A program made the translations under genes and the position numbers. Shown piece after piece: positions 9,335 to 40,377 of a stretch of 40,659 nt of DNA. The DNA lies in IMG/VR virus record IMGVR_UViG_3300015360_000086, positions 1 through 40,659 of that record, one strand, 5' to 3'. The DNA comes from a virus. Under the pieces are notes generated by a model. The model was not told the DNA's origin and made no database searches. It worked only from the letters and a program-made list of their open reading frames with translations. The first letter of the stretch is position 1. Every line of letters begins with the position of its first letter.

Positions 9335-9349
9335 ATAACACTTTGTAAT
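9335..9349 (+). promoter_or_regulatory. Palindromic ATAACA-N3-TGTAAT element at a gene start
   Basis: This is related to the ATTACA-N3-TGTTAT motifs at 12239, 30755, 35709, 40189 and 40294. Here the start codon of the methyltransferase overlaps the element itself, unlike the four cases with an 8-base gap, so it may be an operator rather than a start signal. Confidence 0.45.
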
Positions 9350-11886: not shown

Positions 11887-11915
11887 TTGACACGACACAA
11901 TGTAAAGGCTAATAG
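11887..11915 (+). promoter_or_regulatory. Sigma70-type promoter for the AT-hook gene
   Basis: TTGACA (11887-11892), a 17-base spacer and TAATAG (11910-11915) form a good host-type promoter 37 bases before the AT-hook gene start. The spacer contains ACACAATGTAA, related to the palindrome at 12239. Confidence 0.6.
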
Positions 11916-12238: not shown

Positions 12239-12273
12239 ATTACAATATGTAATTCGTCTGGTATGATTTAAGT
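12239..12273 (+). promoter_or_regulatory. Palindromic operator and extended -10, leaderless start
   Basis: ATTACA-ATA-TGTAAT (12239-12253) is a perfect palindrome. TGG-TATGAT (12259-12267) is an extended -10 whose end lies 6 bases before ATG 12274, so the transcript would start at or next to the start codon. There is no ribosome binding site. A TTACAA at 16 bases upstream of the -10 could serve as a -35. Confidence 0.6.
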
Positions 12274-14406
12274 ATGAGTATCGAACTACTTGTCCGGATG
12301 GGCGACCACCTCTACGCAATCGACCAAGTCACTGAGACCAACAATGTTGGTTTCAATAAGGGCGATCACAGCGGCTGGCCCATGGTGCGCGGCAACGGCC
12401 TGCGGATGACCAAGACTCTTAAGAAGTACCTCAAGACCCAGCTCATCCCTGTGTTCGGCGAAGAGGCCAAGGAAGCCGTCTCCCAGGTCTATACCGAAGA
12501 GGCTCAGGTCGAAGTGGCCCTGACCGGGCTCCCGGAGATTACTCCGACTTTCAACCCCGTCTTTGGATCCATCACGATGGAATACACCGGAGAAATTCCC
12601 AAGATCGTCCGCACCAAGTTCATCAATGTGCAGAAAAAATACGGACTGTGGTGGGACTCAAAGACAAATCGTAACTACATTCCACAACAAAATGTTTCTT
12701 CTTTCAATGTTTCTGGTTATCTTGAGGCCATGCAAAAACTTGGGTTCGCAGTCGCGAGCTTCCCGAAGCTGGACGAAAAGCCTGGTGCGCTCACTCTGGA
12801 TCAGGCGCTGTCCGCTTTGGATTACAAACGGGCACGCAACCTGTTCGTCTGCCGAAAAATCGACGGGCATTACGAGTTCCGGTTCTCCTTCTCCCAGACA
12901 TTGAACGATCTCTTCTCTAATAAGACTGGTAAGCTTACCGGGATCATGGAAGCCCGTCCGACTGACTGGGCTCGGATCACCAACTCTTTGGATCTCGCGA
13001 TTGAAGCAATCGACAAAGCCAAGGCCCTGCTCCCGAGCTGGACCTTTTTCATCGACGGGATCGACCAGGCGAAAGCTGCTCACGAGGAGCGTCAAGCCCT
13101 TCTCACCGCTCCGATCCAAGGCGTGGTGGATCTCCTTAATCCTGACTTCACTCTCTTTCCGTTTCAGAACGAGTTCATTCGGTTCGTTGAGATGTCGGGC
13201 GGCAACTGCTTGATCGGCGCTGAGATGGGTCTGGGTAAGACGGTGATCTCTCTTTCATGGTCGGCTCTGAGAGATCGCCGCGTACTCGTGGTTTGCCCTA
13301 AGGTCGTTCGCCGCACCTGGATCAAAGAAGCTCAGAAGTTTTTTCCATCCGTCTTCACCGATTTCAACACGATCGAACTCAGCCCGAAGCTAATCAAAAA
13401 GGGTGGCCTCCCCGATCTTTCCAATATGAAAATCGCTTCAGTGAACTTCGCTTCATTGATCAAGTTCCTGCCTGCCATTCAAGCGGCTGGATTCGACACT
13501 CTCATTATCGATGAGAGCCACACGATCAAGTCGGAAAAGGCCCAGATCACCCAGACCCTTCACTCGATCTCAAGCTGGTTTAAGTTCAAGATCCTTCTCT
13601 CTGGAACCGCGATCAAGAACAAGAAGGACGAACTCTTCACCCAGATTGAATTGATTCGCCCTGGTTTCTTTGAGAGCAAGCAAGCCCTCAAGATGTCCAC
13701 GATCGGTGGGACGTGGCACGCAATCCAAGAATTCTATAAAACCAAATCCAAACATGAGGTCTTGAAAGACCTTCCTCCAAAACTCAGTTCGATCATTGAG
13801 TTGGACGTGAAGAACTGCCCGGACTTCGTTGGGTCCATTTCTTTTGATGAGATCGCTGCGATGAAGGCCGATGTTTCGATGGCGAAAGCCGACGCGACGA
13901 TTGAATTTATTGAAGAGCTTTTGGACTCCTCTGATTCCAATATCCTTGTTTTCTCGGACTCTGTTGAAGTGGCAAAGAAGATTCATGAAGCACTAGGTAA
14001 GCAATCTTTGCTCCATCACGGTCAGATGTCAGACGATGCTCGCGAAGCTGTGAAAACTTTGTTCCAGAGCCCCGATTGTCAGCAGAGAGTTTTTGTTTCG
14101 ACTCGTCAGTCGCTCGCTGTAGGCGCTACTCTCACCCGCGCTGACAAAGTTGTCTTCAATGATTTGCCCTGGACTCCTGCTGACATTCGCCAAGCCGAAG
14201 ACAGAACTCACCGTATCGGTCAGATCAATCCTGTCAACGTTTACTGGATCAAAGCAACGGGCAACAACTGGGACGAAAAAATCATCAGCATTCTGAAACG
14301 CAAGTACGACATCTCCAAAAAGATTTTGGAGGGTAAGCAAGTTTCCGCTGAAGAGCGCCAGTGGCTTGACACCCCACTGTCTGCAAAGAAGTTTGCCGCA
14401 AAGTAG
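12274..14406 (+). CDS. SNF2-family DNA helicase/translocase
   Basis: The product is 710 residues. The N-terminal about 300 residues lack clear motifs, apart from SITMEYTGEIPKIVRTKF, reminiscent of the N-terminal part of SMARCAL1/phage SNF2 proteins. The motor follows: GAEMGLGKTVISL (Walker A, about 315-327), VVCPKVVRRTWIKEA (Ia), LIIDESHTIKS (Walker B DESH, about 411), LLSGTAIKNKKDEL (III), VFSDSVEVAKKIHEAL (IV), and QAEDRTHRIGQ (VI, about 652). SNF2 enzymes move along duplex DNA using ATP and remodel forks or protein-DNA complexes. It stands alone after a terminator, with its own promoter and a leaderless start. A minus-strand terminator lies just after it. Confidence 0.9.
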   Translation: MSIELLVRMGDHLYAIDQVTETNNVGFNKGDHSGWPMVRGNGLRMTKTLKKYLKTQLIPVFGEEAKEAVSQVYTEEAQVEVALTGLPEITPTFNPVFGSITMEYTGEIPKIVRTKFINVQKKYGLWWDSKTNRNYIPQQNVSSFNVSGYLEAMQKLGFAVASFPKLDEKPGALTLDQALSALDYKRARNLFVCRKIDGHYEFRFSFSQTLNDLFSNKTGKLTGIMEARPTDWARITNSLDLAIEAIDKAKALLPSWTFFIDGIDQAKAAHEERQALLTAPIQGVVDLLNPDFTLFPFQNEFIRFVEMSGGNCLIGAEMGLGKTVISLSWSALRDRRVLVVCPKVVRRTWIKEAQKFFPSVFTDFNTIELSPKLIKKGGLPDLSNMKIASVNFASLIKFLPAIQAAGFDTLIIDESHTIKSEKAQITQTLHSISSWFKFKILLSGTAIKNKKDELFTQIELIRPGFFESKQALKMSTIGGTWHAIQEFYKTKSKHEVLKDLPPKLSSIIELDVKNCPDFVGSISFDEIAAMKADVSMAKADATIEFIEELLDSSDSNILVFSDSVEVAKKIHEALGKQSLLHHGQMSDDAREAVKTLFQSPDCQQRVFVSTRQSLAVGATLTRADKVVFNDLPWTPADIRQAEDRTHRIGQINPVNVYWIKATGNNWDEKIISILKRKYDISKKILEGKQVSAEERQWLDTPLSAKKFAAK

Positions 14407-15897: not shown

Positions 15898-15899
15898 GT

Positions 15900-16030: not shown

Positions 16031-16047
16031 ATTTGGACGAGGTGTCC

Positions 16048-16494: not shown

Positions 16495-17141
16495 CTCCAG
16501 AAGCTTTAGAGCTGGAGAGGATTGAAGAAGCTAAGAGGCGAGAGAAGGAAATTTACCTGGAGTGTAACTTCAGAAGCTCGATGACTGAGTACGATTGCAA
16601 AGAGGCGGGGCTCCCCAAGATCCATTGGGCAGTGAGCAAGCAAGACATCCACCCTGACCACATTAGCTTCATCAAAGAATACGTCAAGCTTTGGACCGTC
16701 GTTGACGAGGGTAGGAAGAGTGCGGACCACGGATTGATTTTGCACGGCACTGAAGATGTCTGTCTCAAATACATGTCGTTCATACTGCAAAGGGTATACC
16801 TGCGGAAACGGGATGTGTATTGCGGTCAAGTTTTTAATCTGGAAGAGGACTGTAAGAATCAGGAGAAGTACCAATACCTTTCTGAAAAGGCGGACCTCTT
16901 GGGAGTCTACGGCTTCCCGTTCTTCCTTCATGGAGCCCCCGCAGGCAGAGACGATCTTTGCGTCACGATGTTTCATCGGATGATCTTGAATCGTCGGAGC
17001 AACATGCTCCCTACTATTTTTGTTTCCAGTAAAAACCTGGAAGACCTCACGAAGCTCTACAGTAACTTTCCGTCGTACATGGTGGATGCGCTGACGAAAT
17101 ATAATAATAGCGTTGGGATCGTAGAAAAGAGTTCGTCATGA
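16467..17141 (+). CDS. Putative degenerate DnaC-type helicase loader
   Basis: The product is 224 residues. The order of features resembles AAA+ loaders of the DnaC/DnaI group: DHGLILHGTEDVCLKYMSFIL (about 88-108) where GLYLYGPPGTGKT would be expected, then ADLLGVYGFPFFLHGA (137-152) in the Walker B position, then RMILNRRSNMLPTIFVSSKNLEDLTKLY (171-198) matching the R-Y-x-x-x-x-PTIxTSN sensor region. The Walker A lysine/threonine motif is absent, so ATP binding is doubtful. Its stop overlaps the DnaB-type helicase start (ATGA), which is where a loader belongs. The assignment is inference; a structural helicase partner without ATPase activity is equally possible. Confidence 0.45.
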   Translation: MEKEQYRSLTPEALELERIEEAKRREKEIYLECNFRSSMTEYDCKEAGLPKIHWAVSKQDIHPDHISFIKEYVKLWTVVDEGRKSADHGLILHGTEDVCLKYMSFILQRVYLRKRDVYCGQVFNLEEDCKNQEKYQYLSEKADLLGVYGFPFFLHGAPAGRDDLCVTMFHRMILNRRSNMLPTIFVSSKNLEDLTKLYSNFPSYMVDALTKYNNSVGIVEKSSS

Positions 17142-19554: not shown

Positions 19555-19557
19555 TCC

Positions 19558-22511: not shown

Positions 22512-22762
22512 TTGGTTGGATTGCAATCTGCGGAGTCGTCTGTTTCATTTTGGGATACGTTGTTGCGGTGCTTCTTGTTTCTCGTGATCAAGATCTCATC
22601 CGCCTCAAACAAGATGAAGTGATTGTACAGCGACCGGCAGTAGGTCTTGTTTTGATTTCAGTTCCCCCGCATGTAATGCGGCGGCTCATAATGCAACCCG
22701 GTGAGTCAAGCGGCCACGAAGCTCGAACTCTGTATCCACGCGAGGGGTCAAAACAAAAATGA
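22508..22762 (+). CDS. Small single-span membrane protein
   Basis: The product is 84 residues. Residues 2-25 (IGWIAICGVVCFILGYVVAVLLVS) form one membrane helix, followed by a cytoplasmic or periplasmic charged tail. The start overlaps the preceding stop (ATGA). Topology and size would fit an inner-membrane spanin or a regulatory membrane peptide, but no lysis genes are adjacent, so no function is claimed. Confidence 0.6.
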   Translation: MIGWIAICGVVCFILGYVVAVLLVSRDQDLIRLKQDEVIVQRPAVGLVLISVPPHVMRRLIMQPGESSGHEARTLYPREGSKQK

Positions 22763-22781
22763 AAATTCGTGCAAATTGCTA

Positions 22782-22796
22782 TTTACATTTTGTTAA
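22782..22796 (+). promoter_or_regulatory. TTTACA-N3-TGTTAA motif copy without a start codon
   Basis: This matches the promoter motif seen at 30755, 35709, 40189 and 40294, but the position 9 bases downstream is ATA, not ATG. It may drive the SSB-like gene 121 bases further on, or be an operator only. Confidence 0.45.
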
Positions 22797-22861
22797 GTGT
22801 CCCTCATAGTTTTTTCAACAGTACAAAAAGTAGTTTTAAATAACTCAAAAAGTAGAAAAGT

Positions 22862-22894
22862 AAATCGACTGAAAATCGACTGAAAATCGACTGA
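22862..22894 (+). repeat. Three 11-bp direct repeats before the SSB-like gene
   Basis: AAATCGACTGA occurs three times without spacers. The repeats lie in the AT-rich 155-base gap, 24 bases before the SSB-like gene start. They look like iterons or a multi-site operator. Confidence 0.8.
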
Positions 22895-22917
22895 ACAACA
22901 TGGATAGGGGAAGTGAT

Positions 22918-23580
22918 ATGTCTTGGTTTACAAAGCCTGGTGATGCGAACAATGACAAGTTCAAGGAATCAAATGCAGCGGGAACTCAGCTCTGGAGATT
23001 CTGGTTGAAGCCTGGTGAGAAGAAAAAGATTCTTTTCTTGGGTGATGAGAAAATTGGTGTGCATGAGCACATGACGAAAGTCGGAACAAACTGGGAGAAG
23101 TTTACTTGCTCCAGAAGTGCTGACTGTTATTTCTGCGGAACTGGATCGAGATCTCAGTACACTGAGTATTCTACGATCTTGGATCTCACTCCTTATACTT
23201 CGAGAGATGGCGTTGCGAAGAAGTTCGCCCGTCGTGCTTTCGCAGCGTCTGGTGCAGCAATCGAGATCTTGAACCGCCGTCGTCAAGACAAGAACGGTAG
23301 CCTTGCAGGATATGGCGTAGAAGCCTTCCGCGATGGTGACAAGAGTCCGAACGTGGGCAATGACTTCACGGTGAGTGCTGAGAAGTACGATCCCCGTAAG
23401 TTGTTTCCGGAAGCCAAAGAGTTTGACTTCCAATTGATTGATTTCGAAAAGTTCCTTACACCGCTGCCCCCTCATATTATCGAGGCGAAGATGCGGTTTG
23501 GTAATGCGAACATTCCGACTCACAAGCGCACTGAGAGCACTGCGACTGCGGCGGAAGACAATTCAGATATCCCGTTTTGA
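22918..23580 (+). CDS. Phage single-stranded DNA-binding protein
   Basis: From ATG 22918 (AGGGGAAG upstream) the product is 220 residues. The core QLWRFWLKPGEKKKILFLGDEKIGVHEHM..., then FTCSRSADCYFCGTG is the pattern of phage SSBs (R/K-FWL-KPGE...I-FLD...HEH, with a CxxC zinc or turn motif). The C-terminus ends EDNSDIPF, like the acidic DIPF tip by which SSBs recruit partner proteins. It should coat single strands in replication and recombination and call in the helicase and nuclease encoded downstream. It begins the second early operon, after iteron-like repeats. Confidence 0.75.
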   Translation: MSWFTKPGDANNDKFKESNAAGTQLWRFWLKPGEKKKILFLGDEKIGVHEHMTKVGTNWEKFTCSRSADCYFCGTGSRSQYTEYSTILDLTPYTSRDGVAKKFARRAFAASGAAIEILNRRRQDKNGSLAGYGVEAFRDGDKSPNVGNDFTVSAEKYDPRKLFPEAKEFDFQLIDFEKFLTPLPPHIIEAKMRFGNANIPTHKRTESTATAAEDNSDIPF

Positions 23581-23620
23581 GGGTATGTAGTCTGATTGTT
23601 TAAAGGGATTAAATAAGGAC

Positions 23621-23672
23621 TTCCCAGGTCAGCCTGATGTTGACCCCACTATTCGTCGGGTTGGCCTGGGGA
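23621..23672 (+). other. Strong hairpin in the leader of the SF2 helicase gene
   Basis: TTCCCAGGTCAGCC (23621-23634) pairs with GGTTGGCCTGGGGA (23659-23672), 14 bp including three G-U pairs, with a 24-base loop. It ends 11 bases before the start at 23684, so it could occlude ribosome access or protect the messenger. No T tract follows, so it is not an intrinsic terminator. Confidence 0.6.
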
Positions 23673-23683
23673 AACTATTGCCT

Positions 23684-25051
23684 ATGAAACCACCACGCGG
23701 CCTCATTAAGATCTATAAAGGCGAGCTAGGACTTGCAGCCAGGGATTTCGTAAAGAACTCTTTGACGGTAGTTCCTGAATCGAAGTCATCATTTACTCCG
23801 ATGCCTGATCCGATCCGGCTTTGGCATGATGATGGTGACTTCATTTACGTTCCTCGCGGTTACTACAATAGTGTGATCAAGAAAAGATTTGATCCAAAGA
23901 TTGATTTTAAGTTTAGCTCTGGAGTTTCTGAGCTGAGGCCGAACACTCCCATCACGCTTCGTGAGGGGCAGGAAGAAACCATCTCCGCTGCGATCGATGC
24001 GATGAGAGCCCATGAGTTTGGTGGAGCAATCGTTGAGGCTCCTACGGGATCCGGCAAAACAGTTCTTGGGATGGAGACGGCTCGTCGCCTGGGGATGAAG
24101 ACTCTGATCGTCGTTCATACCTCGGTGCTGATGGAGCAATGGATTAAAGAGATCAGAAAGTTCATGCCGAATTGGTCAGTGGGCGTGATTCAGGGCGCAA
24201 CATGCGACACCCAGAACAATGATGTGTGCGTGGCAATGCTCCAGAGTTTGGCGCTTGGCGAAGATTATCCTGAGTACCTCTACGATGAGTTCGGGCTTTT
24301 GATCTTTGATGAGATCCACGTTGCGGCTGCGGCTGAGTTTAAGAAGGCGCTCTACAAGTTTCGCCCGAAATACCTCATGGGTCTTTCAGGAACGCTCAAG
24401 AGAAAAGACAAAGCAGAGAATGTATTCAAATACGGTGTAGGGGAAGTGATCCCAGCGATGAACGCAATCGCAATCCTGAAACCCGTAATCTACTTCATTG
24501 ATACGAAGTACGTTTGGACGGGTGGGGCCAGTGCGACCGAGATTCCTTTGGATCGTCAGAAGGTGGGCTTTCTAAAGTCGATCATCTCAGATGCCGGTAG
24601 AAACGAAGTCATCATGCAGAACGTCGTGAAGGCAGCGACTTCTGGTAGGCATGTTTTGGTTTTGTCTGAGCGTGTAGGTCACGTCGAGTCCCTTCACCGT
24701 GAAGTTCAGAAGCGGCTCATGGGATCCAACATCAAGATCGGAATGATGGTGGGGGCTTCTTCTAAGGAGCAACGGGATTACTCGGAAGACGCACAGGTGC
24801 TGTTCGCAACAGTGCAGCTCCTGGCGGTAGGCTTCAACAATCCACGGCTTGATACCCTTGTGATGGCGACTCCGATTCAGAGCATGACCCAGGCGGTGGG
24901 AAGAATTTTAAGGCACCACCCGGATAAAAAGGCACCGTTCGTGATCGACCTCGTGGACGGAAGTGAGATCGGCAGAATCTTTGGGCGATCCAGATTTAGG
25001 CAGTACAGAGAAAAGAAATGGGAAATCAAAGGAGAGCAATGCTTACGGTGA
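23684..25051 (+). CDS. SF2 DNA helicase, UvsW/XPB-like
   Basis: From ATG 23684 (a TTG two codons earlier is possible) the product is 455 residues. After an about 95-residue N-terminal domain the motor shows Q-like LREGQEETI (about 94-102), Walker A EAPTGSGKTVLGME (about 117-130), VVHTSVLMEQWIKE (Ia), LLIFDEIHVAAAAEF (DEIH box, about 205-219), LMGLSGTLKRKD (III), FATVQLLAVGFNNPRLDTLVM (V) and QAVGRILRHHPDK (VI, about 405-417). Phage UvsW-like enzymes resolve branched DNA and R-loops and drive recombination-dependent replication. It is in the operon with the SSB-like and nuclease genes. Confidence 0.85.
   Translation: MKPPRGLIKIYKGELGLAARDFVKNSLTVVPESKSSFTPMPDPIRLWHDDGDFIYVPRGYYNSVIKKRFDPKIDFKFSSGVSELRPNTPITLREGQEETISAAIDAMRAHEFGGAIVEAPTGSGKTVLGMETARRLGMKTLIVVHTSVLMEQWIKEIRKFMPNWSVGVIQGATCDTQNNDVCVAMLQSLALGEDYPEYLYDEFGLLIFDEIHVAAAAEFKKALYKFRPKYLMGLSGTLKRKDKAENVFKYGVGEVIPAMNAIAILKPVIYFIDTKYVWTGGASATEIPLDRQKVGFLKSIISDAGRNEVIMQNVVKAATSGRHVLVLSERVGHVESLHREVQKRLMGSNIKIGMMVGASSKEQRDYSEDAQVLFATVQLLAVGFNNPRLDTLVMATPIQSMTQAVGRILRHHPDKKAPFVIDLVDGSEIGRIFGRSRFRQYREKKWEIKGEQCLR
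24472..24489 (+). repeat. 18-base repeat AATCCTGAAACCCGTAAT, copy 2
   Basis: This copy lies inside the SF2 helicase gene, encoding ILKPVI, and is identical to 15812-15829. A shared 18-mer within coding and intergenic DNA is unlikely by chance. Confidence 0.85.
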
Positions 25052-25055
25052 AACT

Positions 25056-25754
25056 ATGATGAATAAAGAAATGACTCTGCTGGAGTTAGTGGATTACAAA
25101 ACGAAATTAGAAAAGGAACTGCCCGAAGGAGAGCTGGTTCCAGATGAAGTGACCGAGATGGCTGAAGTCGCTTCTCAGTTACTGGAAGGTAAGATTGATC
25201 AGGCTGGACGCTTCCACTCTGGGTTGGTCGGTCACATCGCAGCACTTAAGGCTCAGCTCGCCAACATGCAAGAGATGCTGGAGATGACTGAAGGCTTGAT
25301 GAAGAAGGCCGTGGTTCAGTCCGGAGCTGGCAGACTTGATGGGATGGCGTACTCGATTCGCGTTCAAACGAACGGAGGGGCACCTAGCACCATCATCGAC
25401 GACGAAGCCAAGCTCCCGATGACGTATAAGAAAGTCGTCATCACCAATACCTTTCCTTATACCGATGAGCAGTTCGTTTATTGGGCACGGGCCACCTTGG
25501 GTCGCTTGGTTGAGTGGAAGAAAGATTTAGCCGAAGCCGAGAAGGATGCGAGTCCATTTTACCGACTCGACATTGCGGACAACGAGCGCAGTCGTCTTGA
25601 GAAGTTGTTCACGATTGAGGTGAGCAAGTCTGCCGTTGCGGAAGCCATCAAGAAGGATCCAGTCGCCCTGACCGGCATCGCCCATCAAGAGCGCGGCACG
25701 CACCTTCGCGTTGTGCCGGGCAAGGCAAAGACAAAGGATGTGGCCAATGTCTGA
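25056..25754 (+). CDS. Gp157-like phage protein
   Basis: From ATG 25056 the product is 232 residues. The N-terminal 100 residues are helical (KTKLEKELPEGELVPDEVTEMAEVASQLLEGKIDQAG...QLANMQEMLEMTEGLMKKAV). RLDGMAYSIRVQTNGGAPSTIIDDEAKLPMTYKKV (about 98-132) then closely follows the Siphovirus Gp157 pattern (beta hairpin, NGG/S..., a DE-x-LP-x-x-Y segment). Gp157 proteins are found with phage recombination genes, and resistance to phage infection has been linked to the family; the molecular role is unknown. The product is longer than typical Gp157 (about 160). It overlaps the next gene by 8 bases. Confidence 0.7.
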   Translation: MMNKEMTLLELVDYKTKLEKELPEGELVPDEVTEMAEVASQLLEGKIDQAGRFHSGLVGHIAALKAQLANMQEMLEMTEGLMKKAVVQSGAGRLDGMAYSIRVQTNGGAPSTIIDDEAKLPMTYKKVVITNTFPYTDEQFVYWARATLGRLVEWKKDLAEAEKDASPFYRLDIADNERSRLEKLFTIEVSKSAVAEAIKKDPVALTGIAHQERGTHLRVVPGKAKTKDVANV

Positions 25755-26151
25755 TTTCATGGCTGACTTAATTAAGTCGATCAAAGAAGACCCATCCAAG
25801 GTTCAGGCGAAAGCCGTCAAGAGCAGTGTTGAGACGACGGTTGAGTCCACGAAGTTTGTCGATGGCGAGAAAGTAAAAGAAGTACAACCCGTCACCGAAG
25901 AGAAGAAAGAGGTCGAGACCAAGTTTGTCCGGGAGAAGACTCTTTACTTGTCGGTCGATATGGGCGCGACGATCAATTTGGGCAACTTCAACATGGGTAA
26001 AGTGAACGTGAGTTTATCGATGCCGGTGGGCACTGAGATTACTCCGGAGCTTTTAGCGAAGATTGATTCCAGTTATTCATTTGCCAAGAAGTTTTGTGAG
26101 ACTCGCATGGAGCAAGAAGTTAAAGAGCTGATGAGGCTGAGGTCAGTTTGA
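25747..26151 (+). CDS. Hypothetical protein with beta-rich core
   Basis: From ATG 25747 (AAAGGAT upstream) the product is 134 residues. An acidic/basic disordered N-terminal segment with repeated ETTVE/KEVE motifs is followed by KTLYLSVDMGATINLGNFNMGKVNVSLSMPVGTEITPE, strands seen in small phage proteins where a NLGNYE-like phrase precedes a VslsxP strand. Helical ends follow. No function is known. It is coupled to both neighbours (overlaps of 8 and 4 bases). Confidence 0.65.
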   Translation: MSDFMADLIKSIKEDPSKVQAKAVKSSVETTVESTKFVDGEKVKEVQPVTEEKKEVETKFVREKTLYLSVDMGATINLGNFNMGKVNVSLSMPVGTEITPELLAKIDSSYSFAKKFCETRMEQEVKELMRLRSV

Positions 26152-26753
26152 ACGATTTGAATGAGTCTGCCCTCATCTCTGAAAGCACTGTCGAGATCAG
26201 GACCAAAGAGCTGAACTTGAGAAAGAAGTACGCCTTCGATCTCAAGTTCACTTATTGGGATGCAGATGATTTGAATTTTCAAATGAAGAAGGAAGGCACT
26301 AGCGCGATCACGATTCATCGGGCAGAAGGTGACATTGTCGTCACGAGTGATCCCAAGTTTAAAGATCCAGAGAAGTTTACGATCCGAACAGATCAGTTAA
26401 TTGAGATGTTCGTGATGGACGTGAACGCAGTCAATAAGATGCTCTTGATTCAAAAAGAGTTTGCCGATGTGGGTGGCGTCCGAACGATGGGACTCACGGC
26501 TCCGGGCATCGATGCGATGGAGAAATGGTGCAAGGGCGTAGACGCTGAGATTGTCCGCATTGCTAAGGAACTCCTAAAGAAAGACGTGAAAGAGATTTTC
26601 AGAAAGATCTGGGTTGAGATGGGTGGATCCATGACCAAAGATCACGACCGAGTCGCCAAGCGGATCGATTACTTTCGAAAGATCGGGGAAGCTTTTCGGG
26701 CGGACCAAGAGAAGTGGTCGCCTGAATTGAGAAGGGTGGGCTTGAAAAAATGA
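26148..26753 (+). CDS. Hypothetical protein in the recombination operon
   Basis: The product is 201 residues from TTG 26148, which overlaps the previous stop (TTGA). A beta-rich N-terminal part (RKKYAFDLKFTYWDADDLNFQMKKEGTSAITIHRAEGDIVV) precedes helices with many Lys and Glu (AKELLKKDVKEIFRKIWVEM, KRIDYFRKIGEAFRADQEKW). No motif is recognised. It sits directly before the nuclease gene (ATGA overlap) and may be its partner; that is position only. Confidence 0.6.
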   Translation: MNDLNESALISESTVEIRTKELNLRKKYAFDLKFTYWDADDLNFQMKKEGTSAITIHRAEGDIVVTSDPKFKDPEKFTIRTDQLIEMFVMDVNAVNKMLLIQKEFADVGGVRTMGLTAPGIDAMEKWCKGVDAEIVRIAKELLKKDVKEIFRKIWVEMGGSMTKDHDRVAKRIDYFRKIGEAFRADQEKWSPELRRVGLKK

Positions 26754-27574
26754 GTCTCGCAGATGCATTTAGGGCGGCAATGAGACCAGAGCAGGCGGCG
26801 TTACCGTCAGGATCCCCTTTTGATTTGGTTCAGTTGATGAATAAAAAGCTTCCTATCGAGGAGCTGAGAGGCCCTCCGAGCCCTGAACAAACGTATCGGG
26901 TCTCTCATGTGATCAAGCTTTGCCCGAGGGAAGAGGTTTTGAAGTACATTCATCAGGTCTCTCGCGTGGACAAGGTGGATGCCAAGCTGAGGCGGACCTT
27001 CGATATGGGGAAGTCGTTTCACACCTTGGTGCAGAACGAATGGTTCGGCAAGTGGGGTTGGCTCCTGGGTAAGTGGGAGTGTTTGAACTGCCATGACATG
27101 TATCTGGATCAGCTTATTCCCAGGATTTGTAAGAAGTGTTTTCAAGATAAGTTCTTTTACCACGAGTTAGAACCGGAGAGTAAAGAGCACGGCATCACGG
27201 CTCACGTTGACGGCATCCTATTGAACGACGGCGTGAAGCGGATCGTTGAACTCAAGACGGCAAACTCCATGGCGTTCAATCTAGTGGCCAACATCAAGAG
27301 AAGGCCGCAAGACGCTCACGTCAAACAGATTCAAATGTACATGTATCTCACTGGGATTCACGAGGGAGTGATTCTTTATTTCGATAAGAACGAGTCGCTC
27401 ATCCACCAGTTTGACGAAAAGTTTAGGCCAGATTTAGTTGATTCAATGTTGAGTCAGCTTCAACTAGCGAGAGTAGGCATGAGGACAAAGGCGGTGCCCA
27501 CTCAGAAGGTGTGCGACACAAAGTCATGTGCCAGGGCGAAGTCCTGTCCAGTGAGGGATATATGTTTCAAGTGA
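26750..27574 (+). CDS. PD-(D/E)XK nuclease, Cas4/RecB-like, with Cys cluster
   Basis: The product is 274 residues. The nuclease core shows an H in MGKSFHTLVQ (about 86), GITAHVDGILLNDGVKRIVELKTANS (about 145-170, with Asp and E-x-K), and KQIQMYMYLTGIHEGVILYFDKN (about 190-212, the Q-x-x-x-Y motif). These are the RecB/Cas4 family signatures. Four Cys at the C-terminus (CDTKSCARAKSCPVRDICF, about 252-272) match the iron-sulfur site of Cas4 and AddB. A CxxC...CxxC pair (about 104 and 125) adds a probable zinc site. It likely resects DNA ends during recombination. ATGA overlap with the previous gene. Confidence 0.85.
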   Translation: MSLADAFRAAMRPEQAALPSGSPFDLVQLMNKKLPIEELRGPPSPEQTYRVSHVIKLCPREEVLKYIHQVSRVDKVDAKLRRTFDMGKSFHTLVQNEWFGKWGWLLGKWECLNCHDMYLDQLIPRICKKCFQDKFFYHELEPESKEHGITAHVDGILLNDGVKRIVELKTANSMAFNLVANIKRRPQDAHVKQIQMYMYLTGIHEGVILYFDKNESLIHQFDEKFRPDLVDSMLSQLQLARVGMRTKAVPTQKVCDTKSCARAKSCPVRDICFK

Positions 27575-27588
27575 ATCAAGGAGAAGAA

Positions 27589-28434
27589 ATGGCTAAGAAA
27601 AAAGTAGAAGCGTTGGATGCAGAAGTGACGACGGATGATTTCATTCCAGAGACCCAGCCGATCATGGTGGTGAATGAGTCCATCCGAAGGACTGGTCTTA
27701 GCTCGGATGAATTGCGTAAGCGCATCTTGGAGCTGGTTGGAAACATTCGCGAGAACTACCTGGAGCTGGCTCAGTGCCTGTGGGAAACTTTTGAGCAACA
27801 GAAGAATACCTCATGGGGATATTCCTCTTTCAAAGAGTATGCCCAAAAAGAACTGGGTGTGAAGTACGGCAAGGCCAACTACCTCAAGAACATCTGGATG
27901 CATTTCGGTAAAGACGAGGAGCTTCTGGATCAAGTGAAGTCAGTTGGCTGGGATAAGATGAAAGAGCTGACCAAGATCGTCACGCAAGAGAACGTGAAGG
28001 AGTGGGTTGATAAAGCCAACCTGCTTTCTTGCGACGACTTGAAGAAGGAAGTTAAGAGTCATCTCAAGAACCTAGTGCCGAATGATTCGCAAGGCATGAT
28101 GGATATGGAAGGCGAAGTTCGTGGGACTCCGGTCGAGACCCAGCTTCACTCCCAGACGTTTCAGTTTAGTTATGATTCCAAGGGCACGGTGCTTTCTGCT
28201 CTTGAGAAAGTTCAAAAGGAAACTGGTTCGTCTGCTTCAGAGGCTCTTGCTTTGATCTGCGCCGATTACATTGGGTCAGCAGATGAAGGTACTGGCACCG
28301 ATGCTGTTTTGACTATGGTCCGAAAGTACGAGAGTCTTCTTGGGCTACGGTTTGTTGTCTTGGATCCAGCGTCCAATCAGTTGCTCCACGGCAAGGATAC
28401 GCTTGAGACTTTGGTCAGGACTGCACTAGCTTAA
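27589..28434 (+). CDS. Hypothetical helical protein next to ParB-like gene
   Basis: From ATG 27589 (AAGGAGAAG upstream) the product is 281 residues. Residues about 45-100 (LRKRILELVGNIRENYLELAQCLWETFEQQKNTSWGYSSFKEYAQKELGVKYGKANYLKNIW) resemble DUF3102-like proteins that sit beside ParB and bind DNA or other regulators. A C-terminal half (GTVLSALEKVQKETGSSASEALALICADYIG) has helices with ribbon-helix-helix flavour. It is followed after 10 bases by the ParB-like gene, so a joint role in DNA partition or transcription control is plausible. No firm family. Confidence 0.6.
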   Translation: MAKKKVEALDAEVTTDDFIPETQPIMVVNESIRRTGLSSDELRKRILELVGNIRENYLELAQCLWETFEQQKNTSWGYSSFKEYAQKELGVKYGKANYLKNIWMHFGKDEELLDQVKSVGWDKMKELTKIVTQENVKEWVDKANLLSCDDLKKEVKSHLKNLVPNDSQGMMDMEGEVRGTPVETQLHSQTFQFSYDSKGTVLSALEKVQKETGSSASEALALICADYIGSADEGTGTDAVLTMVRKYESLLGLRFVVLDPASNQLLHGKDTLETLVRTALA

Positions 28435-28444
28435 GGAGATCGTC

Positions 28445-29206
28445 ATGGAAGATTCAGTCAAGGAATGTAGTCAGACCACAAAAGATATTCACGTTGATTC
28501 ACTGATTCCGAATCCAGATAACGTGAATGAAATGGATGAAGACTCGCTTAAGATTCTTTGCGATAACATCTCGGAGGCCGGGTTCAATACGATGATCACG
28601 GTCGTCCCAGGTGCTGATGGAAAGTATCTGATCATGGATGGCCATCAAAGGTGGCGTGCTGCCAAGCGATTGGGCATGAGCTATATTCCGGCGATCGTCC
28701 AGACGGATGTGAAGTGGCAGGACAGTGACCTCTTTGATCTTCAGTCCTTCCGGTTGAACAACATCAAGGGCACCTCTAACACGAGCCAGTACGTTAAGTT
28801 TCATGATCGGATGGCCAAGAAGTACGGCGCTGAGAGTGTGATGCAGGTCTTGGCGATCACCGATAAGTCCAACGCAAAGAAGCTTGCTCGGATGGTGAAG
28901 TCGAGTCTGAAGGATTCCGGCGTCTCTGAAGAGGTTCTTAAGCAAGTGGATGAGGCAGGTAAGAAGTCAAAAGACCTCAACCAGTTCACGAAATACATGA
29001 ACAAGGTCTTTGCTGACCAGGCCAACAACTCAATGGCGGGTTGTATTTTGTTTTCAAGTGGGAGCCAGGAGCACATGGTTGTCCATGCGAATGATGGATT
29101 GTTCAACGCGATGAAAGCAATCTCGTCGTTTGCTACAAGTCAGAACAAAAATGTGAATGAGTATTTGGAGCCGGTGCTCATTGAGTTGCTTGCGAAAATA
29201 AAGTGA
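28445..29206 (+). CDS. ParB/Srx-fold protein
   Basis: The product is 253 residues with the ribosome binding site AAGGAG. Residues about 15-80 form a ParB N-terminal domain: IHVDSLIPNPDNVNEMDEDSLKILCDNISEAGF, PGADGKYLIMDGHQRWRAAKRLG (the DGHQRWRA signature that binds nucleotide). In bacterial ParB this domain is a CTP switch. In phage relatives it can be a nuclease or a transcriptional regulator. No clear HTH follows, so canonical centromere binding is uncertain. It closes the recombination operon and is followed by a stem-loop. Confidence 0.75.
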   Translation: MEDSVKECSQTTKDIHVDSLIPNPDNVNEMDEDSLKILCDNISEAGFNTMITVVPGADGKYLIMDGHQRWRAAKRLGMSYIPAIVQTDVKWQDSDLFDLQSFRLNNIKGTSNTSQYVKFHDRMAKKYGAESVMQVLAITDKSNAKKLARMVKSSLKDSGVSEEVLKQVDEAGKKSKDLNQFTKYMNKVFADQANNSMAGCILFSSGSQEHMVVHANDGLFNAMKAISSFATSQNKNVNEYLEPVLIELLAKIK

Positions 29207-30581: not shown

Positions 30582-30748
30582 TGACGAACGTCCTGCTCGT
30601 GGCCATTGGTTTGGGAATCGTTTTTCTGATCTGCAAGCGACAGGTTCGAGATGCCTATCAGCGCGGGTTCAGAAACGGTCTCGCCTTCGGCATCAAGCAT
30701 AAAAATAAAAAGGTTCCACCACAGAAGAAACCGCAACATCCAGGTTGA
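30578..30748 (+). CDS. Short membrane-anchored basic protein
   Basis: The product is 56 residues. MMTNVLLVAIGLGIVFLICK is one membrane span. The rest is strongly basic with a Lys/Pro tail (KHKNKKVPPQKKPQHPG). It overlaps the previous stop (ATGA) and is a plausible spanin, holin or membrane regulator close to the hydrolase gene at 29299; that is a guess from position. Confidence 0.6.
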   Translation: MMTNVLLVAIGLGIVFLICKRQVRDAYQRGFRNGLAFGIKHKNKKVPPQKKPQHPG

Positions 30749-30754
30749 TTCCTT

Positions 30755-30770
30755 AATACACTTTGTTATG
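30755..30770 (+). promoter_or_regulatory. Motif AATACA-CTT-TGTTATG, 8 bases before ATG
   Basis: This copy ends at 30770 and ATG 30779 follows exactly 8 bases later (TTCGTTGG). There is no ribosome binding site in those 8 bases. The spacing is the same as at 35699, 40179 and 40318. It likely acts as a promoter with a start at or near the ATG. Confidence 0.65.
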
Positions 30771-30778
30771 TTCGTTGG

Positions 30779-31369
30779 ATGGAACAAAATCAGCCTGCGT
30801 CTTCTGTTGATACCTCTGAATCTATTCCTCAGGACGCGACTCAGCCTGAGGTGACGCTTCCTCCTGAGAGGAAGGAGAACGATTACCTGGGCCATACTCT
30901 CACGCCAGTGGGATGGATGGAGCTTCGGTGGCGCGATGGTAAAGAAGTTGAGATCGATCCACTCGACGCAGATGATGCTCCTATCAAGCCTCTCCATAAA
31001 AAATTCAGAGACAAGCACCGCCAGGCTCTGATGGCGTTCATGGAAGCCGTCATTCAAGTGAGGACTATTGACCGGAAGATCCCGATTCTCCGTGAGGAGT
31101 TGATGGACAAGATGAAATTTGAAAAGCAGATCATTAAGGACTTGGTCCAGTTTGGTTTGCTGCACCAACAAGTAATTCCAATCAGTAAAGGCAGTCAGAA
31201 GATGGGCGGTCGGTTGGTGATCACACCAACGATCGAGGCCCGAAAGCTTCAGCGAGCCATTGAAGAGGCAATGAAAGATGTCATCAATCAGCAAGAATCC
31301 ATCCAGCAAGAGACTGGAAACGATGGAGTTGAAGAGTCTCCAGAACGAAGTGTCGAACCTGAAGTTTGA
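30779..31369 (+). CDS. Hypothetical protein with leaderless start
   Basis: The product is 196 residues. The N-terminal 30 residues are acidic and disordered. The centre (HKKFRDKHRQALMAFMEAVIQVRTIDRKIPILREELMDKMKFEKQIIKDLVQFGLLHQQ) is a long helical segment, followed by a beta phrase KMGGRLVITPTIEARKLQRAIEEAMKDVINQQ and a Glu-rich tail. The start ATG 30779 lies 8 bases after the motif and has no ribosome binding site. The 3' end overlaps the next gene. I do not recognise it. Confidence 0.6.
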   Translation: MEQNQPASSVDTSESIPQDATQPEVTLPPERKENDYLGHTLTPVGWMELRWRDGKEVEIDPLDADDAPIKPLHKKFRDKHRQALMAFMEAVIQVRTIDRKIPILREELMDKMKFEKQIIKDLVQFGLLHQQVIPISKGSQKMGGRLVITPTIEARKLQRAIEEAMKDVINQQESIQQETGNDGVEESPERSVEPEV

Positions 31370-33122: not shown

Positions 33123-33185
33123 ATGGTCGCCGGGGATAAGACGTTTTTCTATAGATTTCATTTAAACACCAAGATAAGACACGGT

Positions 33186-34256
33186 GTGCTAATTAGAGAG
33201 TTTAAACTTAAACCCACCAAGAAACAGGTGCGGGCAATAGATACAGCCCTGTGGCAAATGGTGGCCGTATATAATACGGCGATGACTAAGTGCTTTATTG
33301 GCCTACGCACAGGCCAGCTCCCACATAAGTTTGAATTGATATCCGAGTTTTCTGGGCACGGTAAAAAGGCTGGACTGAATCAGGACGCTATTGCTGAAAC
33401 GTGCGCCACGGTTCGTAAGGCTTTTGAGAGATGGCTTACGAAAGACGCCGCCGGAAAGCGATCCGGTAAACCACGAAAAAAGTCGAAGCGAAATAAAGTT
33501 ACTCAAATCACCTACGGGCAAGCGTCGCGGGTACTCGCCCCGAAATTTAGACAAATCAACGTGCCCGGTTTTGGTAAGATTCGATGCTCGAAACAGGACT
33601 TGCCAGATGGGAAGATTAAGGGTGGCCGACTTGTTCGGCGTGCAAGCGGGTATTTCTTCCAGTACGTAATCGACGCTCAGCACGCTCAAGATACCATCTG
33701 CCCCGCCCCAGCGGTGGGCATCGATCCAGGGTTTAAAACTCTTCTCACTCTTTCGGATGGGAGAAAGTTTAATAACCCGCGCGAGCTTCGGAAGACGGAA
33801 GTACGCCTTGCTCAAGCTCAAAGAGGGAATAATAAAAAACTTTCGGCCAAGATATCGGAACGTCTTTCGCGGCAACGAAAGGATAGGAACCATAAGACTA
33901 GCCATGAGATTGTAAAGAACTACTCTGAGATTTATGTTTCGGATGACTCGTACCTGGGAATGCAAAAGACCTTTGGAAAGAGTATCGCCGAAGCCGGTCT
34001 TGGGAACCTTCTGAATATGATCGCCTATAAATCGCAGAACTGCGGTAGGCGATTCGTTCGGGTTGGTTCGAGGAACACCACACGAACCTGCGGAACTTGC
34101 TTGGCCCTCACGGGCCCAACGGGATTTTCTGGTTTGGGGGTAAGAACGTGGACGTGCCCGTGTGGTGCGGAACATGACCGTGATATCAACGCGGCTCAAG
34201 TCGTCCTCCGTTCGGGCCAGGGTATGGCCCCCGTCGAGAAAGTTTGCTTTGTCTGA
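33186..34256 (+). CDS. tnpB: TnpB-like RNA-guided nuclease, intact length
   Basis: From GTG 33186 (VLIREFKLKPTKKQ, the usual TnpB N-terminus) the product is 356 residues; the frame extends to 33123. RuvC-I is VGIDPGFKTLLTLSDGRKF (about 178-196). The RuvC-II site reads YVSDDSYLGM where canonical TnpB has E-D-L, so the catalytic Glu is replaced by Asp. The zinc ribbon is CGTC...WTCPCG, and RuvC-III is EHDRDINAAQVVLRSGQ with Asp intact. TnpB uses an RNA from the element 3' end to guide cutting. The hairpin GGGCCA-GGGTA-TGGCCC (34214-34230) near the stop may belong to that RNA. No TnpA is present, so the element is non-autonomous or used for a regulatory role. Confidence 0.8.
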   Translation: MLIREFKLKPTKKQVRAIDTALWQMVAVYNTAMTKCFIGLRTGQLPHKFELISEFSGHGKKAGLNQDAIAETCATVRKAFERWLTKDAAGKRSGKPRKKSKRNKVTQITYGQASRVLAPKFRQINVPGFGKIRCSKQDLPDGKIKGGRLVRRASGYFFQYVIDAQHAQDTICPAPAVGIDPGFKTLLTLSDGRKFNNPRELRKTEVRLAQAQRGNNKKLSAKISERLSRQRKDRNHKTSHEIVKNYSEIYVSDDSYLGMQKTFGKSIAEAGLGNLLNMIAYKSQNCGRRFVRVGSRNTTRTCGTCLALTGPTGFSGLGVRTWTCPCGAEHDRDINAAQVVLRSGQGMAPVEKVCFV

Positions 34257-35343: not shown

Positions 35344-35699
35344 ATAGAAGCGGGAACAGCGGCCTGCTCTTCGGCGACGAGTTGGTCAAACGGCGCGACT
35401 GTGTTTGCGTCGTCCTTGTAGAACTTCAGACTCTCTTCAGTCTCTTGCTCTTTGAATTCGTTGAATTCAGCCTGGGTCTCCATGCTTTCTTTGTAAGCGT
35501 GGAAGAGGAATGTGAGGAGACGTGCGGTCTGGAAGTCCACGTTCTTGTCGGGATGGACTGGGTTCGTGAGGTTCGCGGCTTCTACGCGCTCCATCAGTCT
35601 TCCAATCAGGATTCCAAATTCAATATCACGAACTCCTGCTATGTCGGTGAAGTCGAGTTCGAGATGTTCTGCCAGTTTTTTTACGTCTTGACTGTTCAT
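35340..35699 (-). CDS. Hypothetical protein with motif-driven start
   Basis: The start is placed at ATG 35699 (119 residues: MNSQDVKKLAEHLELDFTDIAG...) because the recurrent motif ends exactly 8 bases upstream (35707-35724). The longer reading from 35735 would put that motif inside the gene. The product is acidic and helical, with LMERVEAANLTNPVHPDKNVDFQTARLLTFLFHAYKESMETQ in the middle. The family is unknown. It lies divergent to the polyvalent protein gene, sharing a 94-base spacer. Confidence 0.6.
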   Translation of the reverse strand: MNSQDVKKLAEHLELDFTDIAGVRDIEFGILIGRLMERVEAANLTNPVHPDKNVDFQTARLLTFLFHAYKESMETQAEFNEFKEQETEESLKFYKDDANTVAPFDQLVAEEQAAVPASI

Positions 35700-35706
35700 C
35701 ACGTCC

Positions 35707-35724
35707 GCATAACATAACGTAATG
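35707..35724 (-). promoter_or_regulatory. Motif ATTACG-TTA-TGTTATG, 8 bases before ATG
   Basis: On the minus strand the motif CATTACGTTATGTTATGC ends, then 7 more bases lead to ATG 35699; measured from TTATG the gap is 8 bases (CGGACGTG), the same as at three other genes. No ribosome binding site is present. Confidence 0.6.
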
Positions 35725-35743: not shown

Positions 35744-35757
35744 TCCTGAAACCCGTA
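35744..35757 (+). repeat. Third copy of the TCCTGAAACCCGTA repeat
   Basis: This shares 14 bases with copies at 15812 and 24472. It lies in the spacer before the polyvalent protein gene, 73 bases from its start. Confidence 0.75.
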
Positions 35758-35829: not shown

Positions 35830-38800
35830 ATGAGCCTATTCGAATCTGTTGATCAATTCGGTATCCCTGTCATCGAGAAGATGGTCCTCAAGGATTGGTC
35901 AGGCTACCAGAAACGGGTGGCGGACGCTTACTTGGCACGGCCCGAATTTGAGAGCGAGTATATCCCGAGCTGGAACTCTTTGATGCAGCACGTTGAAAAG
36001 ATGTTCAAGCAGATGCAGTCGAAGATCAGCATCGAGTTTGTGGATGAGGATCCCTACAAGGATCAAAAAGAGATCAGCCAGGACATTGAAAAGAACAAGC
36101 GGCTCAAGATCTTCAAGGGTGGCACGACTCATCCGGTGTGGACGAATGAGCAGAATCTGATGTTCCGCGCCTACCATGATTACCTTTCTCACGTTGCTGG
36201 TGACCACTCGTTTGGCGCAAAGGGTGAGATCGCGTCTTACAATCAGCACGTCAAGATGGCTCCGACTGATGCGAGGCTCGCCCTTTTCACGGAGATCGCA
36301 GGCCAGGCCATGACTGCGACTCAGACCGGCAGCTTCCCGGCGCAGAAGATCTGCAAGCTCTGGGGGTTCGATTACGTCAACCTCGGGAAGATTGATGAGG
36401 AAGAATACAAAAAGAATTTAGAGCAGGTCAAAGAGTCTGTCGATGAGTCGGCACCATCAGGATATGAATTCCAGATTGGAAAGTTTGATGGGGATGATGA
36501 CTTCGATCCAGACCCATCGTTTCAGGATTTCAAGATAGTAGCGATGGATTCAAAAGGCAGGCGAGTTGGATACGCGCTCATTGTTCACGTCGGCAATAAA
36601 ATCCAAGCGTATGAAGTCGAGGTCAGTAAGCGGCATCAACGTAAAGGCATCGCCACCGCGATGTATGATCACGCACAAGAGCTAACAGGAAAGAAGATTG
36701 AGCCCTACCGCGACGGCGATGGTGAGCACATGCAGACTAAATCTGCCAAGGCACTCTGGAAACATCGTGGTGTCGAGCTAGAAGCCAAGGGTGATTGGGA
36801 GTTAGAAGGCTACACGTTCGAGACCGAGGTGGATGGCAATACTCTTTTCATCAAAGCAATAAAGGACGGGAAGAAAGTTGCTGTGATGGACGTGGCCCCG
36901 TCAGAAGCGGAGAAGGGAAAGCTCTATCCATTAGGAGTGAAGGTCGATCCAGAACATCGCCGCAAAGGATTGGCGACCGAGATGTACAAGATTGCCGAGA
37001 AACATTTCGGAATGAAGTTCACCGATGGTCATTACCAATCGCCAGAAGGAAAGAAGTTCCGCAAGAGTCACGACAAGAATGAAGACGTGTCGGCTTCAGA
37101 CGGTACTCTCGCCCAAGAGTTCGCTGATAAGTTAAAGCTTGTTCGTTCTCGGCATGGTTGGGTGACAGACTCCAAGTTGCACAAGGGCAAGGGTTACTAT
37201 TCGGTGGATGTCCACGCGGTGATCGGTCCAGAGCGCGAGTCTACTGTTTGGACGGTTGACATTGAGAACGGAAAGTTCACATGGGTAGACTTCTCGCACT
37301 CAACTCCGATTGGAGATTCCGTAGATGACGCCATTGATTCGATCGGCATCATGATCCAAGATGAGGCTCCTGCACAGGTTCTTAGAAAGAAGGTTGAGTC
37401 GGTCGGAGATGCGAAGCAGATTGGTGAGGTGAAGATCGATCCTGAAGCATGGATCTCTGATCCTATTGAAGAAGTCACCAGAGTTTTTTCTGACAAGGGA
37501 GATGGCATTTGGGACGACGGTAAGCGATGGCTGGCTAAAAAAGTTGATGGCAAGGTAGCTGGGGCCATTCGATTTTCGGAGTACAAGTCTGAAAATGATT
37601 TCAAGCAAGTTCCGTCAAAGACCCTGAGTAGAATTGATTCTATTTTTATTGCTCCAGAGTTTCGTCGCAAAGGGATTGGTAAGGAATTACTTCTTCAAGC
37701 GATCAGAACTCATGGAGCAGTCGAGAGCAATATGTCTGCGACTCCAGACGGTGACGCTCTTTGGAAATCAATCAAAGGTACTCCAGGTATAGAAGTGAAA
37801 TACGATGATAGCTCTGAAGACTATGGCCACGTTGCGTGGAGTCTGAAGGGTGAGTCAACTGATCCCAAGTACGACGCCAGCGTGAAAGGTGCATTCGATA
37901 TGCTGACTAAGCAGAAGGCTTGGATCCCGGAAGAAAAGGTATCCTGGGTAACTAAAGATGATTTGGTTTTCGATAAGAAGAGAAACTTATTGTCTGGATA
38001 CAAATACGTTAAGCATGAACAGTTCAATGATGGTTGGGTAGTTAGGTACAATCGAAGGTCATATCGTCCGTTCAGTGTGTCGTGGATGTCTAATGAATTC
38101 CTTCCGGCTCCAAATAGTGGAGGAGCTAGGATGCACGCCAACACGCAGGACTTTAAAAAAGAAGAAGATGCAGAAGCGTACTACCAGTTCAGGAAGCATC
38201 AGTTGGAAGGTCTCGACAAATCTGATGTAAAGGAAGTGAGCGAGATGCGAACCAAAGACCTGAAAGTTGGTGGCAAGACGGTTGAGGCGGTTCTGTTGGC
38301 CGGTGGGCCAGGCTTCAAGATCTACCATGCATCCGGAGTAGACGGAGTCATCCTTGCTCTGGGTAGAAAACAATTCGTGGTGGCTGAGTCTGATCCAGAT
38401 TTCAAAACAGTCATGCAATATGTAAATCTAAAGTATCAGAAGTTGTCTGATCAAGAAGCCATCAAACAGGAGTTTAAGAAATTGATCGCCCCAAAGGCCC
38501 CGGTAAAAGAGGTCCACGAGATGGATCCGCCTTGGGACGGGCTTGCGGAAGGCCAGAAGACTTACACGAGTGATGAGGTCGCAAGCCATCTCGATTCCAT
38601 TGCAGAGCCAGGTGAGTACCTGGAGAACCAGCACGCAGACATCAGTCAGCACGATCGCTGGATCCTAAAAGAGATTGCGATCAGTGATCTGGACTTCAGT
38701 CAGGACAGGGTGGCGAGTGATGACTCTCAAGAGATCATCGACCGGTACAAGGGCCTGAAGTCGGAGGCTCCTCCCATCATCGTCGTCCCACAAGAGGAAG

Positions 38801-39861: not shown

Positions 39862-40179
39862 TCATCGGCAGAGTTCCTCGGTGTATCTTCCTTGAAGGTT
39901 TTCATCGTGCCCGAGCTGAGCGTTGAGAAAGTCAGCCAGGTTTTCGGCATCCCCTTGGTGAAGATTGAGTTTCGTCATGGCGTAGTTCCAGTGAACAAAG
40001 CCACCAAATTCATAGGCTCCCCGTCCCTCGACGCCGATGAAGAGGCCGGTCTTGAGAGGGAGAATTCCCACGGTGAGCTGACTGACATTCGCAAGCGCGA
40101 TCTTTCCATGGAACGGAAGTTCGAGCTTGGTCCATCTGGCTAGGGTGGTGCGGCCTTTGGGCTTAGGTCTGATGGGCAT
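39862..40179 (-). CDS. Hypothetical protein with motif-driven start
   Basis: The product is 105 residues from ATG 40179, which lies 8 bases after the TGTTATG motif on the minus strand. Basic N-terminus (MPIRPKPKGRTTLARWTKLEL), then beta-rich segments (GKIALANVSQLTVGILPLKTGLFIGVEGRGAYEFGGFVHWNY) and a C-terminal helix. It may be a small virion- or DNA-associated protein. The 54-base gap to the polyvalent gene contains no gene. Confidence 0.65.
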   Translation of the reverse strand: MPIRPKPKGRTTLARWTKLELPFHGKIALANVSQLTVGILPLKTGLFIGVEGRGAYEFGGFVHWNYAMTKLNLHQGDAENLADFLNAQLGHDENLQGRYTEELCR

Positions 40180-40186
40180 TTATGAT

Positions 40187-40204
40187 GCATAACAAAATGT
40201 ATTA
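40187..40204 (-). promoter_or_regulatory. Motif AATACA-TTT-TGTTATG, 8 bases before ATG
   Basis: On the minus strand TAATACATTTTGTTATGC ends 7 bases before the ATG; from TTATG to ATG 40179 the gap is 8 bases (CATCATAA). TATAAT overlaps its 5' end (TTATAATACATT). No ribosome binding site is visible. Confidence 0.7.
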
Positions 40205-40265
40205 TAACCAGCAACAAGGAATAAACTGAAGCGAAACAAGTGGGTTAGTCTGTGTCCTAGATGAC

Positions 40266-40293
40266 GCATTGCGTATTGCGTATTGCATATTGC
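40266..40293 (+). repeat. Four tandem 7-bp repeats, RTATTGC type
   Basis: GCATTGC-GTATTGC-GTATTGC-ATATTGC (40266-40293) abuts the promoter motif at 40294. Heptamers with near-identical phase suggest a multi-copy binding site or iteron. The surrounding 40,205-40,317 stretch has no gene. Confidence 0.75.
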
Positions 40294-40309
40294 ATTACAT
40301 TTTGTTAGG
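40294..40309 (+). promoter_or_regulatory. Motif ATTACA-TTT-TGTTAGG, 8 bases before ATG
   Basis: The motif ends at 40309 and ATG 40318 follows after exactly 8 bases (ATTTAAAT), without a ribosome binding site. It is preceded directly by the heptamer repeats. Confidence 0.7.
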
Positions 40310-40317
40310 ATTTAAAT

Positions 40318-40377
40318 ATGAGCAACACCAAACAGTTCAAATATGCCCGTGAACTTTTCAAGCGTGGAGTTTGGTGA
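40318..40377 (+). CDS. Leader peptide-sized ORF
   Basis: This is a 19-residue ORF (MSNTKQFKYARELFKRGVW) from ATG 40318, 8 bases after the motif, ending at TGA that overlaps the next ATG (ATGA). It is basic and amphipathic. Coupling with its neighbour and the conserved spacing support it as translated, at least as a leader. Confidence 0.5.
   Translation: MSNTKQFKYARELFKRGVW

Follow-up and report, generated by a model that had tools for sequence, protein, structure and literature searches.

Does the short motif TACR-N3-TGTTAKG, which recurs just upstream of start codons in the genome of an uncultured phage, mark promoters whose transcripts begin at the start codon itself, and which polymerase would read it? 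We examined this in a 40,659-base IMG/VR virus record (GC 0.495), analyzed over its whole length and called the window below, which carries replication, recombination, and nucleotide genes of a tailed phage. An earlier note on this DNA had described four copies of the motif, each separated from an ATG by exactly 8 bases, and a pattern scan of the window recovered all four at the places claimed as exact matches to WWTACRNNNTGTTAKG, i.e., 30755-30770 (+), 35708-35723 (-), 40188-40203 (-), and 40294-40309 (+), with an open frame beginning at each of the ATGs (30779, 35699, 40179, and 40318). A copy with one mismatch at 22782-22797 (+) was found, as the note had also stated, to have no start codon at the expected place; the 22900 gene begins some 100 bases beyond it, and no reading makes this copy leaderless.

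With up to two mismatches allowed, WWTACRNNNTGTTAKG matched the window 13 times against 5.2 expected, and as many matches were obtained in 0 of 100 shuffles. TGTTA[TG]G was followed by N8 and ATG four times, and by ATG at any other gap within 0 to 20 bases only once in total. First-order Markov simulation of the same geometry gave a mean of 0.12 and a maximum of 2. Given the exact placements and this simulated mean, the four-copy motif and its 8-base geometry are real and unlikely to be due to chance. That a reader scanning upstream regions picked out a chance resemblance would fit with a pattern chosen after the fact and with two doubtful starts among the four, but the simulated means of 0.12 for the geometry and 0.04 for the dyad described below stand against 4 and 6 observed, independent support came later from relatives, and a conserved orthologous promoter disfavors it further, leaving this explanation hardly credible. 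In a scan of IMG/VR for TACANNNTGTTATG-N8-ATG, at least 119 stretches were returned, mostly single copies within coding regions, and these were rejected as chance matches.

The motif is best read as two overlapping signals, a predicted extended -10 promoter and an operator-like near-dyad. In the E. coli numbering of the extended -10 class (PMC7403470), TGTTATGNN corresponds to an extended -10 element with TG at -15/-14 and TANNNN at -12 to -7 when +1 is placed on the A of the ATG; at 30779, TGTTATGTT thus has TG at -15/-14 and TATGTT at -12 to -7. The same register is found at 40179 (TATGCA), 40318 (TAGGAT), and 35699 (TATGCG). A search by geometry only, TG-N-TAN4-N6-ATG, added a further site in the window, TGGTATGAT at 12274, the start of a gene for an SNF2-like helicase, at which the motif of the earlier note is absent. 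The sequences and distances of these sites, read directly, are as follows.

30745..30779, + strand: predicted leaderless promoter of the 30779 gene (sequence and an orthologue in relative G10, below); -35 TTGATT at 30745-30750, 16-bp spacer, TG at 30764-30765, -10 TATGTT at 30767-30772, N6, ATG at 30779
40179..40214, - strand: probable leaderless promoter of the 40179 gene (sequence); -35 TTGCTG at 40214-40209, 17-bp spacer, TG at 40194-40193, -10 TATGCA at 40191-40186, N6, ATG at 40179
40283..40318, + strand: probable leaderless promoter of the first frame of a string of small frames (sequence; ambiguous owing to AGGA); -35 TTGCAT at 40283-40288, 17-bp spacer, TG at 40303-40304, -10 TAGGAT at 40306-40311, N6, ATG at 40318
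35699..35723, - strand: fourth motif copy, TG and TATGCG before the ATG at 35699, doubtful as a gene start
12239..12274, + strand: further candidate leaderless promoter; ATTACA, 17-bp spacer, TATGAT, with TG at 12259-12260, N6, ATG at 12274

The -10 hexamer begins at -12, with T-12 and A-11 present, in all four copies and at 12274, while the T-7 of TANNNT is present at 30779, 40318, and 12274 and absent at 40179 and 35699. The earlier statement that no -35 box is consistent fails, because -35-like hexamers stand at the right distance upstream of the -10 in three of the four copies (TTGATT at 16 bp, and TTGCTG and TTGCAT at 17 bp each). For promoters of this class, a -35 box resembling TTGACA at 16-18 bp is an optional feature. 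A plain promoter consensus scan detected no excess in this region, and we therefore relied on geometry and on orthologues. We infer that TGTTATG/TGTTAGG would serve as an extended -10 element for the host's main sigma70-type RNA polymerase, and that the predicted start at the A of the start codon would yield a leaderless message, translated without a Shine-Dalgarno sequence.

Shine-Dalgarno matches were detected at 22 of the 29 other starts in the window and were absent from 12 of the 15 leaderless candidates. The claim that the four ATGs have no Shine-Dalgarno sequence held for 30779, 40179, and 35699, and likewise applies to 12274, but not for 40318, where the motif itself reads TTAGGA, so that AGGA stands 7 bases ahead of the ATG. 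The frame at 40318 has only 19 codons, but the frames at 40377 and 40448 come next, each with its start overlapping the stop of the frame before it, an arrangement that favors a translated, coupled string. The 35699 copy may be intragenic, since an ATG at 35735 in the same frame has AGGA 8 bases before it, a good Shine-Dalgarno distance. This AGGA comes from one copy of an exact 14-base repeat, TACGGGTTTCAGGA, found at 2187-2200 (+), 15814-15827 (-), 24474-24487 (-), and 35744-35757 (-), four copies against 0.3 expected, the last directly before ATG 35735. At 40179, a separate TATAAT within the spacer forms a better -10 further upstream, which could give a short-leader message. The weak cases for a leaderless promoter are thus 35699, 40318, and 22782.

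The second signal was defined by a dyad scan. TACA-N3-TGTWA occurs at six distinct sites in the window against a simulated mean of 0.04, and TACA/TGTWA pairs are found there at spacing 3 only, with none at 0 to 2 or 4 to 10, an excess that can be read directly. All six are intergenic (intergenic DNA is 10% of the sequence). In the copies of the earlier note, the arms are imperfect (TACA/TGTT). The six sites and one relaxed match are the following.

30757..30768, + strand: operator-like near-dyad TACACTTTGTTA (dyad scan, simulation)
40190..40201, - strand: operator-like near-dyad TACATTTTGTTA (dyad scan, simulation)
40296..40307, + strand: operator-like near-dyad TACATTTTGTTA (dyad scan, simulation)
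22784..22795, + strand: operator-like near-dyad TACATTTTGTTA ahead of the 22900/22918 gene, outside the leaderless distance (dyad scan, simulation)
12241..12252, + strand: operator-like dyad lying across the -35 of the 12274 promoter (dyad scan); with its flanks, a perfect palindrome, ATTACATATTGTAAT (- strand)
9336..9347, - strand: operator-like near-dyad TACAAAGTGTTA, immediately before the 9348 gene and abutting its start, in reversed orientation to the gene (dyad scan, simulation)
11894..11905, + strand: one-mismatch dyad GACACAATGTAA, in the spacer of TTGACA-17-TAATAG, a sigma70-like promoter before the 11953 gene

Other one-mismatch dyads lie at 3104 and 34298, both intergenic. TACA-N3-TGTWA may be the binding site of a regulator, perhaps phage-encoded, whose existence we infer from the sites; such a regulator would cover the -10 element and spacer at three promoters and the -35 region or start codon elsewhere, and its binding would control these promoters. 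The simplest reading of the sequence is that a putative operator overlaps several leaderless promoters in the window. A ribbon-helix-helix-like protein encoded at 5402, a weak match below the Pfam cut-off, is a weak candidate for the dyad-binding protein; the HTH_3 profile matched nothing in the window, three proteins in relative G1, and one in G10. The dyad appears to be an undescribed element of an ordinary kind, and its reading as a regulator site is a lead.

Could the sites be operators only, with transcripts that truly start upstream and an 8-base distance from ATG that is incidental? The dyad excess, its intergenic placement, and its fixed spacing of 3 would all agree with this, as would the upstream TATAAT at 40179 and the alternative initiation signals at 35699 and 40318. 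It does not account for the exact gap of 8 in four of the five TGTTAKG-ATG pairs within 20 bases, for a relative that keeps promoter and distance without the dyad, or for a positional peak in relatives, and we regard it as unlikely.

The relatives were found by alignment. Alignment of the phosphoesterase led to G1 (IMGVR_UViG_3300050139_000095, 160 kb), whose gene order is common to window positions 10065-29206 at 26-66% identity, and alignment of the primases of the window and G1 led to G10 (IMGVR_UViG_3300045919_000302, 149 kb), with gene order as in the window and 25-67% protein identity (46% for the 30779 gene). Single-protein searches with the 40179 gene, the DnaB-like helicase, the DEAD helicase, and TnpB gave nothing close, and two further records found via the phosphoesterase, L005 and L006, showed no synteny with the window. 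By phmmer, no orthologue of the 40179, 35699, or 40318 gene was detected in G1 or G10, and among the four promoters only that at 30779 has an orthologue for comparison.

This orthologue (G10 80819, -) encodes a protein starting MEQP, compared with MEQN in the window, and is preceded by TTGACA-N16-TATGGT with the TG in place, then N6 and ATG. An ungapped alignment with the window shows the same TTGA in the -35 and the same TTTGTTATG in both, but in G10 unrelated sequence stands where the window has TACAC. Read directly, therefore, conservation covers the -35 box, the extended -10, and their spacing from the ATG, and the TACR part is lost. The -10 of the G10 orthologue is enclosed by another inverted repeat, AGGACCAT-TTGTT-ATGGTCCT, which is perfect and present in a single copy. 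The 12274 promoter is not kept in G10, where the orthologue has a Shine-Dalgarno sequence. No TACA-N3-TGTWA dyad was found in G10, whereas G1 has four distinct dyad sites against 0.74 in shuffles, none at the 8-base distance. With the promoter but no dyad in G10, and the dyad but not the distance in G1, the two are separable, and the TACR half behaves as a separate operator-like element outside the promoter proper.

A positional test was applied to G1 and G10 pooled, with promoters defined by TANNNT and a -35 matching at least 4 of 6 positions (or TG and TTG) and frames of at least 50 codons. Sigma70-like promoters ending 6 bases before ATG numbered 11, compared to a mean of 2.9 at other distances. 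This directly read peak has a Poisson p of 2e-4, a modest p of about 0.01 after allowing for 61 distances, and no peak was seen in the reversed genomes. Candidates in the peak with genuine-looking N-termini include a ribbon-helix-helix protein at G1 8613, G1 128788, and G10 37550. Otherwise different proteins at window 35830-35900, G1 128788, and G10 37550 and 79557 have in common an N-terminal motif, D-x-FG-x-P-x-(V/I)-E-K, perhaps a signal for targeting or packaging. In both of the orthologous ribbon-helix-helix genes, at G1 8613 and at about 1950-2010 (-) in G10, the promoter spacer contains an inverted repeat (TACGCAAAGCTTGCGTA and CTACGT-N7-ACGTAG, respectively), which suggests self-regulation. 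The palindrome TCCAATYRATTGGA occurs in about 21 copies in G1 (L217-L224; e.g., record positions 35445, 57600, and 108639), both genic and intergenic, and is absent from the window.

In the window, GCCCGAGCCC-like hexamer repeat arrays at 1193-1327 and 3740-4510, on opposite strands, are interrupted by copies of a TAGTCACGCTAACACCCCG-like sequence, and a 59-base inverted repeat (2081-2139 / 5970-6028) is 98% complementary over a separation of 3.8 kb. A 611-codon protein (6291-8126) combines a DNA-methyltransferase-like C-terminal part with an ASxASxAS run, a 9-base DNA repeat of more than 30 units. Two TnpB-like genes (IS605 OrfB type by sequence), at 8423-9058 (-) and 33123-34256 (+), both match one and the same stretch of L005.

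The note had proposed that the motif may be read by a phage-specific factor or polymerase and had suggested looking for one. Profiles of sigma70 region 2 (PF04542) and RpoB (PF00562) matched their positive controls but nothing in the window, G1, or G10; that of T7-type RNA polymerase (PF00940), searched without a positive control, gave no match there either; and sigma region 4 (PF04545) gave matches only below the cut-off, in relatives. These searches cover the window, which is a fragment, and relatives whose records are perhaps incomplete too. No candidate passed the threshold, and together with the -35 boxes and the perfect TTGACA of the G10 orthologue this speaks against the proposal; nothing here appears to call for a phage polymerase.

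It is quite unlikely, in our estimate, that the TACA half-site and the extended -10 form one composite element, TACA-N3-TGTTAKG, read by a transcription factor that the phage encodes; if true, this factor would switch leaderless phage genes on or off together, start and site forming a single recognition unit. That the whole TACR-N3-TGTTAKG is one promoter element of a phage sigma factor, a sigma-appropriating protein, or a phage RNA polymerase seems very unlikely. The spacer TACA is more conserved than sigma70 promoters need, and T-7 is absent in two of four copies, which speaks for it; but the -35 boxes exist, the G10 orthologue retains -35, -10, and TG while losing TACA, the dyad also stands reversed or away from a fitting -10 (9336, 12241, and 22784), and the profile searches of the window and both relatives returned sigma region 4 below the cut-off only, with no sigma region 2, T7-type, or RpoB match. 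We consider it probable that these sites are leaderless promoters of the host sigma70 polymerase, some overlapped by the near-palindromic operator of a regulator. The leaderless promoter proposed earlier is thus upheld by geometry, the mostly absent Shine-Dalgarno sequences, the G10 orthologue, and the peak in relatives, but not at 22782, with 35699 doubtful and 40318 ambiguous.

The promoter arrangement itself is of a known kind. The cI gene of phage lambda, transcribed from PRM, is the textbook case of a leaderless phage mRNA, and the Bacteroidetes-type promoter box is TAnnTTTG; the latter was rejected here, as it is one base too long and this phage uses Shine-Dalgarno sequences. The lambda cI message is leaderless (PMC9031893); as there, the start codon is the predicted 5' end of the message, host polymerase would be used, and the putative operators lie over the promoter, whereas here several genes are involved, the sequence is unrelated, and no repressor is assigned. 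Leaderless genes in many bacteria carry a TANNNT box some 12 bp ahead of their start codon (PMC3160421), and our sites resemble these in the first -10 T at 12 bases before ATG, the sigma70-like box, and a mostly Shine-Dalgarno genome, but differ in the extended TG, the -35 boxes, the phage setting, and the overlapping repeated near-dyad. Leaderless mRNAs in Thermus phage phiYS40 (PMC3594737) and extended -10 middle and late promoters in Thermus phage P23-45 (PMC7403470) similarly represent a phage strategy using host polymerase, a likeness of kind; unlike those phages, the window has -35 boxes too and no assigned sigma-remodelling protein. The late promoters of phiKZ share the word TATG, with its G as the start (PMC4666361), whereas here TATG lies at -12 to -9 and no multisubunit phage polymerase was found in the window or relatives; a phiKZ-type promoter was rejected for its wrong register.

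Altogether, the results suggest that an uncultured phage lineage whose genes are mostly Shine-Dalgarno-led also keeps host-type promoters placed exactly on start codons, one of which is conserved in an orthologue across distant relatives. This is relevant to the question of when phages resort to leaderless translation and offers a sequence-only route to such genes, and the dyad marks a candidate regulon in this phage.
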